From Nocardioides jiangsuensis (GTDB lineage: Bacteria > Actinomycetota > Actinomycetes > Propionibacteriales > Nocardioidaceae), in assembly GCF_019679455.1 (NCBI RefSeq), contig NZ_JAIEZQ010000002.1, positions 1 to 64,000 of the forward strand: 64,000 bases of DNA, written 5' to 3'. Under the pieces are notes generated by a model. The model was given only the letters and a program-made list of their open reading frames with translations, did no database searches and was not told the origin of the DNA. Below, piece by piece: positions 48,295-57,888 of the stretch; position 1 is the stretch's first letter, and each line of letters starts with the position of its first letter. The position numbers and the translations under genes are program-made.

Positions 48295-48639
48295 CTAGTC
48301 CTTGGACAGGGCGCGGGCACGAGCCAGCCGCGGCCGGCTGAGCAGGAAGGCGATGACCGCCAGCCCCGCCATCACGACGATCCGGTTCGGGTCGACCGCC
48401 GGCCGCCAGCTGACCTGGCCGTCCTGGATGACGTAGGCGCCGGCCGGGCGGCCGCTGACGCCGAACCCGCCGCCCTCACCCTCCTGGCCCTTGTCGTCGT
48501 GGCCCGTGCCGCCGCCGGCGCCTCCGCCCACGATCGCGGCGGGGATGACGGTGAGCCCGTCCTTCTCGTAGGGCTCGCCGTACACCCGCTTGACCGTGAT
48601 CGCGTCCCTGGCGTTGCTGAGGACCTCGTTGACCTTCAT
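48295..48639 (-). CDS. GerW/YtfJ family protein
   Basis: 114 residues. Family pattern VIPAAIVGGGAGGGTG, then GGGFGVSGRPAGAYVIQDG, and a single C-terminal membrane helix (about 85-103). In sporulating Firmicutes YtfJ/GerW is linked to spore germination; actinobacterial members are uncharacterised. GGAGG precedes the ATG at 48639. Confidence 0.85.
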   Translation of the reverse strand: MKVNEVLSNARDAITVKRVYGEPYEKDGLTVIPAAIVGGGAGGGTGHDDKGQEGEGGGFGVSGRPAGAYVIQDGQVSWRPAVDPNRIVVMAGLAVIAFLLSRPRLARARALSKD

Positions 48640-48804
48640 GAACCCTCCTCGTGGGCGTCGGTGCGGGCGAAAGGCCCGAGACCATGCTCCGGAGCGTGCG
48701 GCGGAACAGGCAGGGCTGAAGGTCCCCTGTGGGATCGCATGCGGGTGGGTGCCGCTCGGCTAGCCTTCGGCAGTCGTCACCGCTGACCGGGAAGGGTGTG
48801 TGCC

Positions 48805-49853: not shown

Positions 49854-49874
49854 GGCACCACTCCTAGTCTCGAC

Positions 49875-51011
49875 CTACTCGACCACGCGGAGGTGGCGGT
49901 CGGTGTTGTTGAGCCGGCGGCCCCCGTCCCCGGTGACGGTCACGATGTCCTCGATCCGGACCCCGAACCGGCCGGACAGGTAGATCCCGGGCTCGATGGA
50001 GAAGCACATGCCCGGCTGCAGCGGCTGCTCCTCGCCCTCGACCAGGTACGGCGGCTCGTGCGTGGTGACGCCGATCCCATGCCCGGTGCGGTGGATGAAC
50101 CGCTCGCCGTACCCGGCCTCGGTGATCACCGACCGGGCCGCCCGGTCGATCTCCTGGCAGGTCGTGCCCGGCCGCACCGCCTCGAACGCCGCCTGCTGGG
50201 CCGCCCGTACGACGTCGTGCACCTGCTGCACCTCCGGGCTCGGCTCGCCGACGCACACGGTGCGCGTGGTGTCCGACCCGTAGCCGAGCATCAGCCCGCC
50301 GAAGTCCAGCACGACCGCGTCGCCTGGCTGGATCAGCCGCTCCCCGGGCTGGTGGTGCGGGTTCGCGCCGTTGGGGCCCGACCCGACCAGGGTGAAGTCC
50401 ACCTGCTCGTGCCCGAACTCCCGGAGCAGGCGGGCCAGGTCGGCCGCCACCTCGGTCTCGCGCCGGCCCGAGAAGCGCAGCCGGACGATCTCGGCGTACG
50501 CCGCGTCGGCGGCCGCGCCCGCCGCCGCCAGCCGGGACAGCTCGTTCGCGTCCTTGACCGCCCGAAGCATGGGCAGGCTCGTGCTGAGCGCGCGGTAGTG
50601 CGTCTCGGGCAGGGCTCGCTGCAGGCCGAGCAGGTGCAGGGACCACGCCGAGTCGGAGATGCCGAAGCGCCCGTCCGTCTGCAGCAGGCCGCTGGCGACC
50701 TGGTACGGGTCGTTCCCGTCGGCCCAGTCGACGATGCCGACGCCGGGGGCTCCCTCGGCGGCCTCCGCGTCGGGCCGCTCGAGCGTCGGCACGAGGAGCG
50801 TGGGCCGGATGCCGGGGGAGAGCACCAGCATGGTGAGGCGTTCGGTGACCGCCGTGGGCCGGTACCCGGTGAGCCAGACCAGGTCCGGGCCGGGCGTGAC
50901 GATCACCCCGTCCAGGCCCACCTCCAGGGCCTCGTCGACCACCCGCGCCATCCGGGCCGTGTAGTCCTCGGTCGTGAACGGCGCAGGCGTCGGGTGCGTG
51001 GTGGCGGTCAT
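49875..51011 (-). CDS. M24 family Xaa-Pro peptidase
   Basis: 378 residues. N-terminal creatinase-like domain (about 1-150; PDLVWLTGYRPTAVTERL) and a pita-bread catalytic domain with VVLDFGG, GYGSDTTRT, RTGHGIGVTTHEPP, CFSIEPGIYL and RIED, supplying the metal ligands. Cleaves the bond before proline in short peptides. GGAGGAG precedes the ATG at 51011. Confidence 0.92.
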   Translation of the reverse strand: MTATTHPTPAPFTTEDYTARMARVVDEALEVGLDGVIVTPGPDLVWLTGYRPTAVTERLTMLVLSPGIRPTLLVPTLERPDAEAAEGAPGVGIVDWADGNDPYQVASGLLQTDGRFGISDSAWSLHLLGLQRALPETHYRALSTSLPMLRAVKDANELSRLAAAGAAADAAYAEIVRLRFSGRRETEVAADLARLLREFGHEQVDFTLVGSGPNGANPHHQPGERLIQPGDAVVLDFGGLMLGYGSDTTRTVCVGEPSPEVQQVHDVVRAAQQAAFEAVRPGTTCQEIDRAARSVITEAGYGERFIHRTGHGIGVTTHEPPYLVEGEEQPLQPGMCFSIEPGIYLSGRFGVRIEDIVTVTGDGGRRLNNTDRHLRVVE

Positions 51012-51115
51012 GGCTCTCCTCCGTCCGGCACCCCACGCTAGCCACCCGCGCCCGGTGGAGGGCTCATCCCGGACGGGGGATGTCCGGGCCGGGCGGCCCC
51101 TGCTTCGGTGGTCCC

Positions 51116-52087: not shown

Positions 52088-53005
52088 ATGGACGACATGC
52101 GCTGGCGTGATCCCGACTGGCTGGCCGGGGTGCACGCCTGGGTCGACGACCGGCTCGACGAGCTGGGTGTGGTGCGGACCGGTGAGCTCGAGCAGCCGCA
52201 CGTCTACCCGTGGTCGACCGTGCTGCGCGTCCCGACCCGGCAGGGCGACGTCTGGTTCAAGGCCAGCGGTGACGGACTGCGGCACGAGGCCGCCGTCACC
52301 GCACGGATCGCGGCCCGCCGTCCCGACGCCGTCCCGCCCCTGCTGGCCGCCGACACCACGGCCGGCTGGATGCTGATGACCGACGCCGGCGAGTCGCTGC
52401 GCACGGTGGTGCCGCGCGAGCAGAGCCTCGACCGCTGGTACGACGTCCTGCCGCTCTACGCCGGCGTCCAGCTCGACCTCGCCGACGACGTGGACGAGCT
52501 GCTGGCCCTCGGCGTACCGGACATGCGGCTGGCCACGCTGCCGAAGGGCTACGAGCGGCTGATGGACGAGATCGGTGCCGACCGGCGCTTCCGCGACGCG
52601 GCGCCGCTGGTGGCCGACCTGTGCGACGAGCTCGCGGCGTTCGGGCTGCCCGAGCTGCTCCAGCACGACGACCTGCACGACGGCCAGGTGTTCGTCCGCG
52701 ACGACCGTCCCCTGCTGATGGACTGGGGCGACGTCTGTATCTCGCACCCGTTCTTCACGCTCTCGGTCACCCTCCAGGGTGTCCTGGCGTGGGGGCTCGA
52801 GGACGTCCAGGACTCGGTCGACGTGGCGCCGTTCCGCGACGCCTACCTCGCGCCGTACGCCGAGCGCTTCGACGGCGACCTCGTGGCCGCGACCGAGGTG
52901 GCCATGCGGCTCGGCTGGGCCTGCCGCGCGGTGAACGGACACGTGCCGAGCGACCACGACCACACGTTCACCCGGCTGCGGATGTTCCTCGACGGCCGGC
53001 CGTAG
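52088..53005 (+). CDS. Aminoglycoside phosphotransferase (APH)-fold kinase
   Basis: 305 residues. Catalytic loop LQHDDLHDGQVFV (Brenner-type motif) and metal-binding LLMDWGD; the N lobe has WFKASGDGLRHEAAVTARIA. Small-molecule kinase of unknown substrate; nothing marks it as a true antibiotic-resistance enzyme. The stop codon lies 100 nt before the TPP riboswitch on the same strand, so read-through could deliver transcription into it. Confidence 0.82.
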   Translation: MDDMRWRDPDWLAGVHAWVDDRLDELGVVRTGELEQPHVYPWSTVLRVPTRQGDVWFKASGDGLRHEAAVTARIAARRPDAVPPLLAADTTAGWMLMTDAGESLRTVVPREQSLDRWYDVLPLYAGVQLDLADDVDELLALGVPDMRLATLPKGYERLMDEIGADRRFRDAAPLVADLCDELAAFGLPELLQHDDLHDGQVFVRDDRPLLMDWGDVCISHPFFTLSVTLQGVLAWGLEDVQDSVDVAPFRDAYLAPYAERFDGDLVAATEVAMRLGWACRAVNGHVPSDHDHTFTRLRMFLDGRP

Positions 53006-53105
53006 CACCGACGGGCGGGGGCGCCGATAGCCCGTCCGGCGGTCTGGAACCCTGTCTTTGGACCCTGGCGGGAGGTGCCCGCGCCCGGCATCGTGGGACG
53101 TGGCC

Positions 53106-53232
53106 TGCGAGACGGGCGAGGGAGCCGGAAGGCTGAGAAGCAAGACGGCTGAGAGGCTGGACGATCGAGAGATCGGACAGCGACCCCCATCACCTGATCC
53201 GGACAATACCGGCGAAGGGAAATCGCCTCGCA
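53106..53232 (+). promoter_or_regulatory. TPP (THI-box) riboswitch, apparently orphan
   Basis: The 3' half CACCTGATCCGG (53191-53202), ACAATACCGG and CGAAGGGAA (to 53221) matches the THI-box consensus very closely, including the CCGG/CCGG helix and GCGAAGGG pyrophosphate site. The 5' half has GGGAGCC (53120-53126) and GGCTGAGA (53147-53154). P1 pairs TGCGA + GGCGA (53106-53119) with TCGCC + TCGCA (53223-53232). A variable hairpin (53156-53181) holds a tandem G-A/G-A internal loop. GGCTGAGA occurs a second time at 53131-53138. The downstream + strand has no thiamine gene. Confidence 0.85.
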
Positions 53233-53257
53233 GGTCCATGCACGTGCCCGTGCGGGT

Positions 53258-53680
53258 TCACACGTCGAGCGTGACGGAGCAACGCCAACCGCCCGGTCCA
53301 GGAGCGAAGTAGAGCTCATGCAGCGACACCGCCTTGGGAACGGCACCGGTCTGGGGAAGGGCCGTCGCGTCGCACATCGCGAACCGGACGTCGACGCCCC
53401 CGTCATCGGGCTCCAGCTCGACGTCCAGGGGCGCCTCCCCGGTCGTGTCCAGGAGGTAGACCACCTCGTCGAGCACCGCCACCAGCAGGTCTTCGTCGCT
53501 GTGCCCGGTCAGCCGGCACCGGCGGCTGCGCTCGGGATGCACCGACGAGGTGTCGAGGAAGCTGTCGACGGTGCCGAGCACCGCCTGGGCGATACAGCCC
53601 TCGCGCGTCGGTGCCCACGCCTCCACCCGGAGGTCCGCCGTGTGCGGCACGGTCCGGTGTCCGGGCTCGGTCTCGTCCAT
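53258..53680 (-). CDS. Archease (RtcB activator)
   Basis: 140 residues. Archease fold: [16 protein letters not shown] at the N terminus, [20 protein letters not shown] in the middle and [19 protein letters not shown] with acidic residues at the C terminus. Archease speeds guanylylation and turnover of the RNA ligase RtcB. Divergent from rtcB (83-bp gap), an arrangement that marks an RNA-repair unit. The orphan riboswitch on the opposite strand ends 26 bp from its stop. Confidence 0.92.
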
Positions 53681-53763
53681 CGGCCTGCTCCCTCCTGGTG
53701 CGGACAGCGGAGCACGGCCGGCCTGGCCGGGACCAGAGGCTTGAGACCCGGATCCGCGGCCTC

Positions 53764-55188
53764 ATGAAGGTCGTCGAGGAGACGCCGTACCGGTTCCGGA
53801 TCGAGCGGGAGGGCGCGATGCGGGTGCCGGGCATCGTGTTCGCGTCGCACGGCCTGCTGCCCGACGTGCACGGCGACAAGGCGCTGGTGCAGGTGGCGAA
53901 CGTGGCCACGCTGCCCGGGATCGTCCGGGCCTCCTTCGCCATGCCCGACGTGCACTGGGGCTACGGCTTCCCGATCGGCGGGGTGGCGGCCACGGACGTG
54001 GAGGCGGGAGGGGTGGTCTCGCCCGGCGGGGTCGGCTTCGACATCTCGTGCGGGGTGCGGCTTCTCGTGGCCCCGGACCTCGACCGTGTGGGACTGATGC
54101 CCCGGCTCCAGGCGGTGATGGACCGGCTCGACCACGCCATCCCCCGCGGCATGGGCCAGAAAGGGGTGTGGCGGCTGCTGGACCGGGCGTCGTTGCGGCG
54201 GGTGCTCGAGGGCGGGGCCCGGTACGCGGTGGAGCAGGGGCACGGCGTCCCCCGCGACCTGGACCGGTGCGAGGACCGCGGGGTGCTGGCCGGGGCGGAC
54301 GGGGCCGCGGTCGGCGATCGGGCCCTCGAGCGCGGGCTGGGCCAGGTCGGCAGCCTCGGCTCGGGCAACCACTTCCTCGAGGTCCAGGTCGTCGACCAGG
54401 TGTACGACGCGGGCACGGCGGCGCGGATGGGCGGCCTGCGGCAGGGGTCGGTGTGCGTGATGATCCACTGCGGCTCGCGGGGCCTGGGCCACCAGGTCTG
54501 CACCGACCACGTGCGGCAGATGGACAAGGCGATGGGCCGGTACGGCATCGTCGTCCCCGACCGCCAGCTGGCCTGCACCCCGGTCCGCTCTCCCGAGGGG
54601 GAGGCCTACCTCGCGGCGATGACCGCTGCGGCGAACTACGGCCGCGCCAACCGCCAACTGCTCACCGAGGCGGTGCGCCGGGTCCTGACGGCGGAGGTGG
54701 GGACGTCGCTCGACCTGGTCTACGACATCTCGCACAACCTGGCCAAGCTCGAGGTGCACGACGTCGACGGCCGGCGGCGCTCCCTGTGCGTGCACCGCAA
54801 GGGTGCGACCCGGTCGCTGCCCCCGCACCACCCCGACCTGCCGGGGGACCTGGCGGAGGTCGGTCAGCCGGTGCTGATCCCGGGCACGATGGGCACCGCG
54901 TCGTACGTGCTGGCGGGCGTGGCCGACAACCCCGCGTTCTGCTCGACCGCCCACGGCGCCGGGCGGGTCCAGAGCCGGCACCAGGCCGCGCGCGGCACCA
55001 GCGGCAGAGCGCTCCGGAGCCAGCTGGAGACCCAGGGCATCCTGGTGCGCGGCGTGTCGTGGCGCGGGCTCGCCGAGGAGAAGCCCGAGGCGTACAAGGA
55101 CATCGACGCCGTCGCCGACATCAGCCAGCGGGCCGGACTTGCCCGGAAGGTCGCTCGCCTGGTCCCGCTCGGCGTGGTGAAGGGCTGA
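53764..55188 (+). CDS. rtcB: RtcB RNA ligase
   Basis: 474 residues. GTP-dependent ligation of 2',3'-cyclic-phosphate or 3'-phosphate and 5'-OH RNA ends. Metal ligands in FDISCGVR (Cys96), SGNHF (His203), IHCGSRG and DISHN; conserved HRKGATR (344-350); guanylylated His in STAHGAGR (His397). The ATG at 53764 is the only start near the family N terminus. RtcR is not present. Roles include tRNA or rRNA repair after toxin damage. Confidence 0.94.
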
Positions 55189-55453: not shown

Positions 55454-55549
55454 GCGCTCGCCTCCCGGATGTGCGTCGACCCCTTCATGCTGCGCCCGCC
55501 CGGCCCACGAAACCAAGGGAACTTCGGCCCCTCGCGCGCGGCAGCGGCG

Positions 55550-57666: not shown

Positions 57667-57888
57667 GTCAGCCAATCTGCCAGCCGGGTCGCGGACGACG
57701 TAGGGCCCAAGGTCCCCGGGAGTCGCGCCGACTCCGCAGGCGTCACCCTTCGGAGGGCGGATAGGGGACGGCGGACCACGGAGCAGGCGTGTGCTCTTCA
57801 CTCCCTCGCCGTGGTGGAGAACCATCGGTGTCAGGTCCTCCTGGACGGGGGTCGTCGCGGAGCTGGAGCGTTTGCCGGAGGTCCACCC

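Follow-up and report, generated by a model that had tools for sequence, protein, structure and literature searches.

The whole stretch of DNA analysed here, 64,000 nucleotides of the Nocardioides jiangsuensis genome (the window), carries at 53102–53236 on its plus strand an aptamer of the TPP type with a long closing helix, P1, as seen with the Rfam TPP model (RF00059), with a covariance model trained on orphan copies (R2), and by folding. The upstream neighbour is an APH-like phosphotransferase gene (52088–53005, plus strand; PF01636, E 2e-5), and at 49873–51013 a segment within a peptidase-like gene has an 80% identical paralogue at C2:1419897–1421037 of the same genome. A 24-codon ORF (53239–53313, plus strand) sits directly 3′ of P1. 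The next gene after the element is archease (53258–53680, minus strand; PF01951, E 7.8e-27), convergent with the element and 22 nt after it, and beyond this comes rtcB (53764–55188, plus strand; PF01139, E 2.6e-158), divergent from archease. The original prediction had described an orphan aptamer facing an opposite-strand archease gene that separates it from a plus-strand rtcB, with no thiamine gene downstream; the Pfam matches agree with this order, the gene context is confirmed with the aptamer pointing into the 3′ end of archease, and the element does not lead into a gene for thiamine synthesis or transport.

Over its whole length the element aligns to RF00059 at 53108–53237 (plus strand) with 43.6 bits (E 2e-7 in the 401 nt searched, and E 4.7e-7 in a genome-wide search). 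The Rfam gathering score is 54.3 bits, and because the element falls below it, a default Rfam scan of the window at gathering returns three tRNAs only and no TPP element; of the proposed covariance match, the full-length alignment therefore stands and a score at the family threshold does not. No Rfam family besides RF00059 matched at the elements, apart from one match at E 0.27 that is due to chance. The R2 model, which was trained with the window copy included, gives that copy 127.7 bits. The window RNA folds at −68.4 kcal/mol (z −5.7 against shuffles, with 0 of 200 reaching this value), its centroid fold has the TPP architecture, and the assignment of a TPP-type THI-box to the plus strand is borne out by both the alignment and the fold.

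All parts of the element lie on the plus strand. The 5′ strand of P1, an extended helix, occupies 53102–53115 and the 3′ strand 53223–53236, with 13 of the 14 positions paired and one A·C; the element had earlier been placed at 53106–53232, a location that holds, and it is slightly longer than that because P1 spans 14 positions. The 3′ strand is followed by CATGCACG and no T-tract. Between the P1 strands, a GCGA junction to the next helix (53116–53119) is not found in the aligned ordinary TPP riboswitches of the family, and it is followed by the CTGAGA T-loop (53149–53154) and the pyrophosphate-sensor arm ACCTGATCC...GGCGAAGGGA (53192–53220). The P1 strands and the motifs GGCTGAGA, ACCTGATCCGG, and GGCGAAGGGA that had been named beforehand are all present in the sequence. 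An imperfect 16-nt tandem duplication (GGCTGAGA twice, at 53131–53146 and 53147–53162, 13/16 identical; period 16 at 53123–53163 in Tandem Repeats Finder) sits within the aptamer, in the arm that holds a large insert in the streptomycete-type copies, and this internal duplication probably accounts for part of the low RF00059 score.

The original prediction linked the element to RNA repair, with TPP controlling archease and rtcB, and position alone counts in favour of this. For comparison, we used the best 80 of 115 actinobacterial archease loci in GTDB genomes (L064–L143), where rtcB lies near archease in 79/80; among these the orientation of the two genes changes (co-directed, divergent, or convergent). 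A family covariance model, built from 27 ordinary TPP riboswitches of the host family, recovers the window element (33.2 bits, E 5.6e-5) and also three ordinary riboswitches in control loci, and at these best 80 of 115 archease loci it finds nothing better than E 0.43; an Rfam scan of 12 of the 80 at the gathering score contained no TPP element either. Archease itself is present in 2/245 genomes of the host family, and in the other archease-bearing genome (G006) the sole TPP match lies on a different contig. The element was therefore not conserved at the archease/rtcB loci compared, and it recurs beside unrelated genes, so that a place for it in an archease/rtcB cassette was rejected on the strength of the 80 loci without it. 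We regard TPP control of these two genes as extremely improbable, and archease and rtcB look like incidental neighbours of the element.

Copies of the element do occur in other actinobacteria. With blastn, close relatives (E 1e-14 or better) were found in seven other genomes (G305, G250, G252, G255, G260, G263, and G265) among 391 genomes of the host order, in which ordinary riboswitches matched weakly. An exact 45-nt search pattern, made of the 3′ half of the element with P1 (53192–53236, plus strand, in the window), matched 8/381 genomes of the order, namely the window genome, six of one genus, and one with three copies, and the reversed pattern used as a control matched 0. We infer that the six-genome genus includes Actinopolymorpha rutila. 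G305 holds three copies (L185, L186, and L236), and the ~70 nt downstream of P1 are similar in L185 and L186, as if a longer unit had been copied. Outside the order, the pattern matched 57/238 genomes of genus g77, which we take to be Streptomyces. The streptomycete-type copies (L237–L266) carry a large, highly conserved extra arm, GTAGCCGAC...GGCCGACGTCGACGG, placed between the first helix strand and CTGAGA, and the same long form is found on a linear megaplasmid of the Streptomycetaceae member Embleya sp. NBC_00888 (NZ_CP108785.1, 4631725–4631898), the sole match among plasmid records. Spread through phages was rejected, as IMG/VR had no match to the exact pattern and phage records had no match by blastn.

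When 394 genomes of the class were scanned with R2 at E 0.01, matches were obtained in 282, mostly ordinary TPP riboswitches judging by score; nine of these loci were read (L197–L204 and L207), of which seven are the element and two (L203 and L207) are ordinary riboswitches. RF00059 matched 13/14 other orphan loci with 32.1–46.1 bits, under the 54.3 of the gathering score, and did not match one at E 0.05, while at gathering it matched 0/9 further orphan loci. Because these scores fall under the Rfam cut-off, routine annotation skips this family of elements. No report of the element was found in the open-access papers searched.

The gene context of the copies differs from that of ordinary TPP riboswitches. 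Of 42 ordinary loci, three were dropped where the aptamer could not be placed, leaving 39, three of which had no gene call; a same-strand gene begins within 300 nt in 36/36 of those called, and the next gene is on the opposite strand in 0/36. For the orphan copies, heuristic gene calls put the following gene on the opposite strand in 26/30 streptomycete-type and 6/12 other copies, and a same-strand gene lies within 300 nt, despite the orphan rule, in 3/30 and 3/12, respectively. Their neighbours share nothing, with DUF2267, DUF1918-CBS, gas vesicle, ferredoxin, TetR, and aldehyde dehydrogenase genes among those checked (for L185–L204 the neighbours were judged by eye from ORFs, and ten proteins were checked with Pfam). 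No thi gene was recognised beside any copy read, judging the printed ORFs by eye. Six streptomycete-type loci, two of them on short contigs, had none of four genes searched for. The window genome holds a single further TPP element (61 bits, G000:C1:1377042–1377148), an ordinary riboswitch that precedes a YkoE-type transporter gene (PF09819), and lacks thiC; because thiC is absent, the organism probably depends on an external supply of the pyrimidine moiety of thiamine.

The element shares with the TPP riboswitch of RF00059 (the THI element) the aptamer core, the pocket motifs, and the pyrimidine and pyrophosphate arms, whereas its P1 has 12–14 bp, compared to 5 in the Rfam model and 3–5 in aligned ordinary riboswitches. 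It also has a G(C/T)GA junction, found as G(C/T)GAGGGAG in 14/15 aligned orphan copies and, reading by eye, not in 27 aligned ordinary riboswitches of the family. Compensatory variants of P1 occur across clades (CCTGC/GCAGG, CCTGT/ACAGG, and CCTAC/GTAGG). In the alignment of 15 copies, 5/14 pairs show double changes (4 pairs in an earlier set of 10 copies), and 92.8% of P1 cells are paired, compared to 33–50% with the partner slid; in the streptomycete-type set together with L197, double changes occur at 15/51 pairs. Because the changes in P1 are compensatory between clades, the element is, on this comparison of sequences, a constrained RNA and not a remnant.

The ligand pocket is also kept. 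In the excerpts of PMC7824784 and PMC3764141 that we drew on for TPP-contacting or most conserved residues, the CTGAGA T-loop is where the pyrimidine of TPP sits in known structures. Mapped by eye, the contact residues fall in CTGAGA, CCTGA, and GGCGNAGG, and U39–A43, U59, G60, C77, G78, and A80 (thiM numbering, likewise mapped by eye, and as given in those excerpts) are kept in 14/15 copies. The window copy and 13 more of the 15 have all of CTGAGA, CCTGA(T/C)C, and GGCGNAGGGA, and 4 kinds of pocket motif survive in the window copy. In the streptomycete-type set, CTGAGA, which lies outside the search pattern, is present in 30/30. Judged by these motifs, the element probably binds TPP. Exceptions to the rule are found in three places. 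The second copy in G265 (L190:7652–7773, minus strand) has CTAACA for CTGAGA and keeps the box, P1, and the rest, and is thus a natural pocket mutant. L192:7233–7378 and L193:7171–7267 (both minus strand), which lie just before a same-strand P450 gene and a luciferase-like monooxygenase gene, keep a DosR-like box (11/12) and the P1 strands around an interior that is not a complete TPP aptamer; these two are possibly a variant with another ligand, and they leave room for a role independent of TPP. It could be argued from the loss of CTGAGA in L190, from the two loci that keep box and P1 without the pocket, and from the high conservation of the large insert arm that the TPP fold now serves another ligand, or a protein, and that function resides in the long P1 and in the large arm of the streptomycete type. 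The pocket residues retained in 14/15 aligned copies speak against this adaptation, which we consider unlikely.

Promoter-like sequence stands right before P1, a further difference from the riboswitches of RF00059. A TANNNT hexamer, the −10 motif given for S. lividans in the excerpt of PMC8079986 that was available, ends 6–9 nt before P1 in 30/30 streptomycete-type copies (background 1.9%). At the other end, a T-tract follows P1 in streptomycete-type copies, 26/30 of them having at least three T among the 8 nt that come after the search pattern (background 8.4%); in the host order, at least three T are found in those 8 nt in 7/11 copies, and the window copy has 1 T. In Embleya, the −10 sequence TATCCT, the RNA, and a GGTTTTC tail are kept among unrelated genes. 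With TANNNT just ahead of P1 and T residues just behind it, P1 seems to mark both ends of the transcript. In the window, a scan of 52900–53900 for promoter and terminator consensus sequences found nothing, and the best −10 candidate, CATCGT, is poor.

In the host order, a different sequence recurs upstream of the element. The window has a DosR/OsdR-like box, CTGTCTTTGGACCCT, at 53052–53066 (plus strand), starting 50 nt before the element, with a good right half and a degenerate left half. Measured against the DosR consensus GGGACTTNNGNCCCT as it appears in an excerpt of PMC6448022 (S. coelicolor OsdR sites such as CGGGACCTTCGGCCCT were taken from a portion of PMC5069765), this box scores 9/12 and has the same 49–52 nt spacing as those of nine other copies. 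A DosR-like box is thus found 49–52 nt before the element in 10/13 copies of the host order, at 9/12 in the window, 9 in one other copy, and 10–11 in eight others, when the chance per position is 4.1e-4 for at least 9/12 and 1.8e-5 for 11/12; four of these ten copies are orthologues from a single genus. At this spacing the box is absent from the three G305 copies, from L197, and from the six streptomycete-type copies tested, and within 150 nt of ordinary TPP riboswitches it was found in 0/39. The window overall shows no enrichment of DosR-like boxes (7 at 10/12 or better, compared to a mean of 8.95 in shuffled sequence). Boxes of 10–11/12 at 57702–57716 (minus strand), 55518–55532 (plus strand), and 48712–48726 (minus strand) precede a flavodoxin gene, nadA, and a small gene at 48639. 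A DosR link to archease itself was also considered as a reason for the neighbourhood and rejected, since upstream boxes reach 11/14 in a looser scan at 3/80 archease loci and no link was seen. In the literature, no DosR paper was among the matches listed for DosR together with RtcB or archease, and none of the open-access papers searched contained both 'TPP riboswitch' and 'DosR'.

As its DosR-like box is weak and the T-tract is missing, the window copy may be regulated differently from the others or may be weakening. This bears on whether the element once led a thiamine gene, since lost, and is now a relic that decays in place; a relic had been one of the choices offered by the original prediction. 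The absence of a thi gene beside the element, the Rfam score below the cut-off, the internal duplication, and the weak box without a T-tract would all fit such decay, and because the genome has no thiC, a lost thi operon was a fair guess. On the other hand, the orphan state, the covariation in P1, and the promoter spacing are common to copies in other genera, which keep the pocket and have no thi genes, and the 4 kinds of pocket motif remain intact in the window copy. A relic is therefore improbable, and the family of copies does not support the idea; the window copy alone could be dying. Two possible sources in the genus mate G001, its thi operon with a riboswitch before thiE (L037) and its thiB-type transporter operon (L038), were set aside because of the orphan copies elsewhere.

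The arrangement of the neighbours gives the main rival to the explanation we favour. Here, P1 would be a terminator in which the aptamer is embedded, and without TPP it would fail, giving an RNA antisense to the convergent gene, which is archease in the window and TetR in streptomycetes. In 25/30 streptomycete-type copies, the nearest gene downstream converges on the element from within 300 nt, and in 23/30 a TetR gene is convergent (20 at 20–183 nt and three at 549–941 nt); in the window, archease is 22 nt past the element, and the lack of a T-tract after P1 would allow read-through into it. An S-box of Clostridium acetobutylicum is said to control an antisense RNA, and a riboswitch-controlled antisense RNA has reportedly been found in Listeria, so in such systems, as proposed for the element, the amount of an RNA running against a neighbouring gene may depend on an aptamer. 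We know of none that uses TPP, and the convergent gene of the element, in contrast to these systems, is not conserved. TetR lies anywhere from 20 to 941 nt away, different clades have unrelated convergent genes, a same-strand gene is next in 6/12 other copies, and Embleya has no long convergent gene directly after the element among the ORFs printed. Taken together, we think an antisense switch unlikely, if somewhat less so than the other alternatives. An overlap of aptamer and terminator, as is proposed for the P1 of the element, also has a parallel in the HMP-PP riboswitch (thiS motif), a terminator-embedded aptamer in the excerpts of PMC6478431 and PMC6429828; its fold differs from that of the element, and according to the latter excerpt, it sits upstream of TPP biosynthesis genes.

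The explanation that we hold to be probable is that the element belongs to a family of stand-alone small RNA genes, each with a TPP-type aptamer closed by a long P1. From the covarying P1, the kept pocket residues, the promoter-like spacing, the T-tract of streptomycetes, and the unrelated neighbours, we infer transcription, binding of TPP, and action away from the locus. RNA polymerase would start at P1 or a few nt before it, transcribe the aptamer, and, at least in streptomycetes, stop after P1, which would double as the stem of a terminator. The RNA product would bind TPP, and its occupancy by TPP would alter what the RNA does away from its locus, through pairing with a target or binding of a protein, and not the adjoining gene. 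In the host order, a regulator of the DosR/OsdR type (hypoxia, dormancy) seems to drive most copies, and for this reason the RNA would report TPP status during entry into dormancy; a link to dormancy in some lineages is the best reading of the boxes found. A small RNA under a DosR-type promoter has a likeness in mycobacteria, where DrrS is reportedly a DosR-regulated small RNA and is not known to be a TPP aptamer. The fuller form of the explanation is a TPP-sensing small RNA that is autonomous, having a promoter and a terminator of its own, and which has moved between actinobacterial loci and lineages, has been wired to DosR/OsdR in several of them, and acts away from its locus. As a whole, this is quite possible, and we put it forward tentatively.

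In the usual view, a riboswitch aptamer is the leader of the gene that it controls. A conserved family with a vitamin-cofactor pocket and no gene to switch would imply that an aptamer of this kind can serve as a free RNA, for regulation or for sensing. The DosR-type box gives a clear prediction of when the RNA would be made, and if the fuller explanation is true, the level of TPP and the signal for dormancy would meet in one small RNA.
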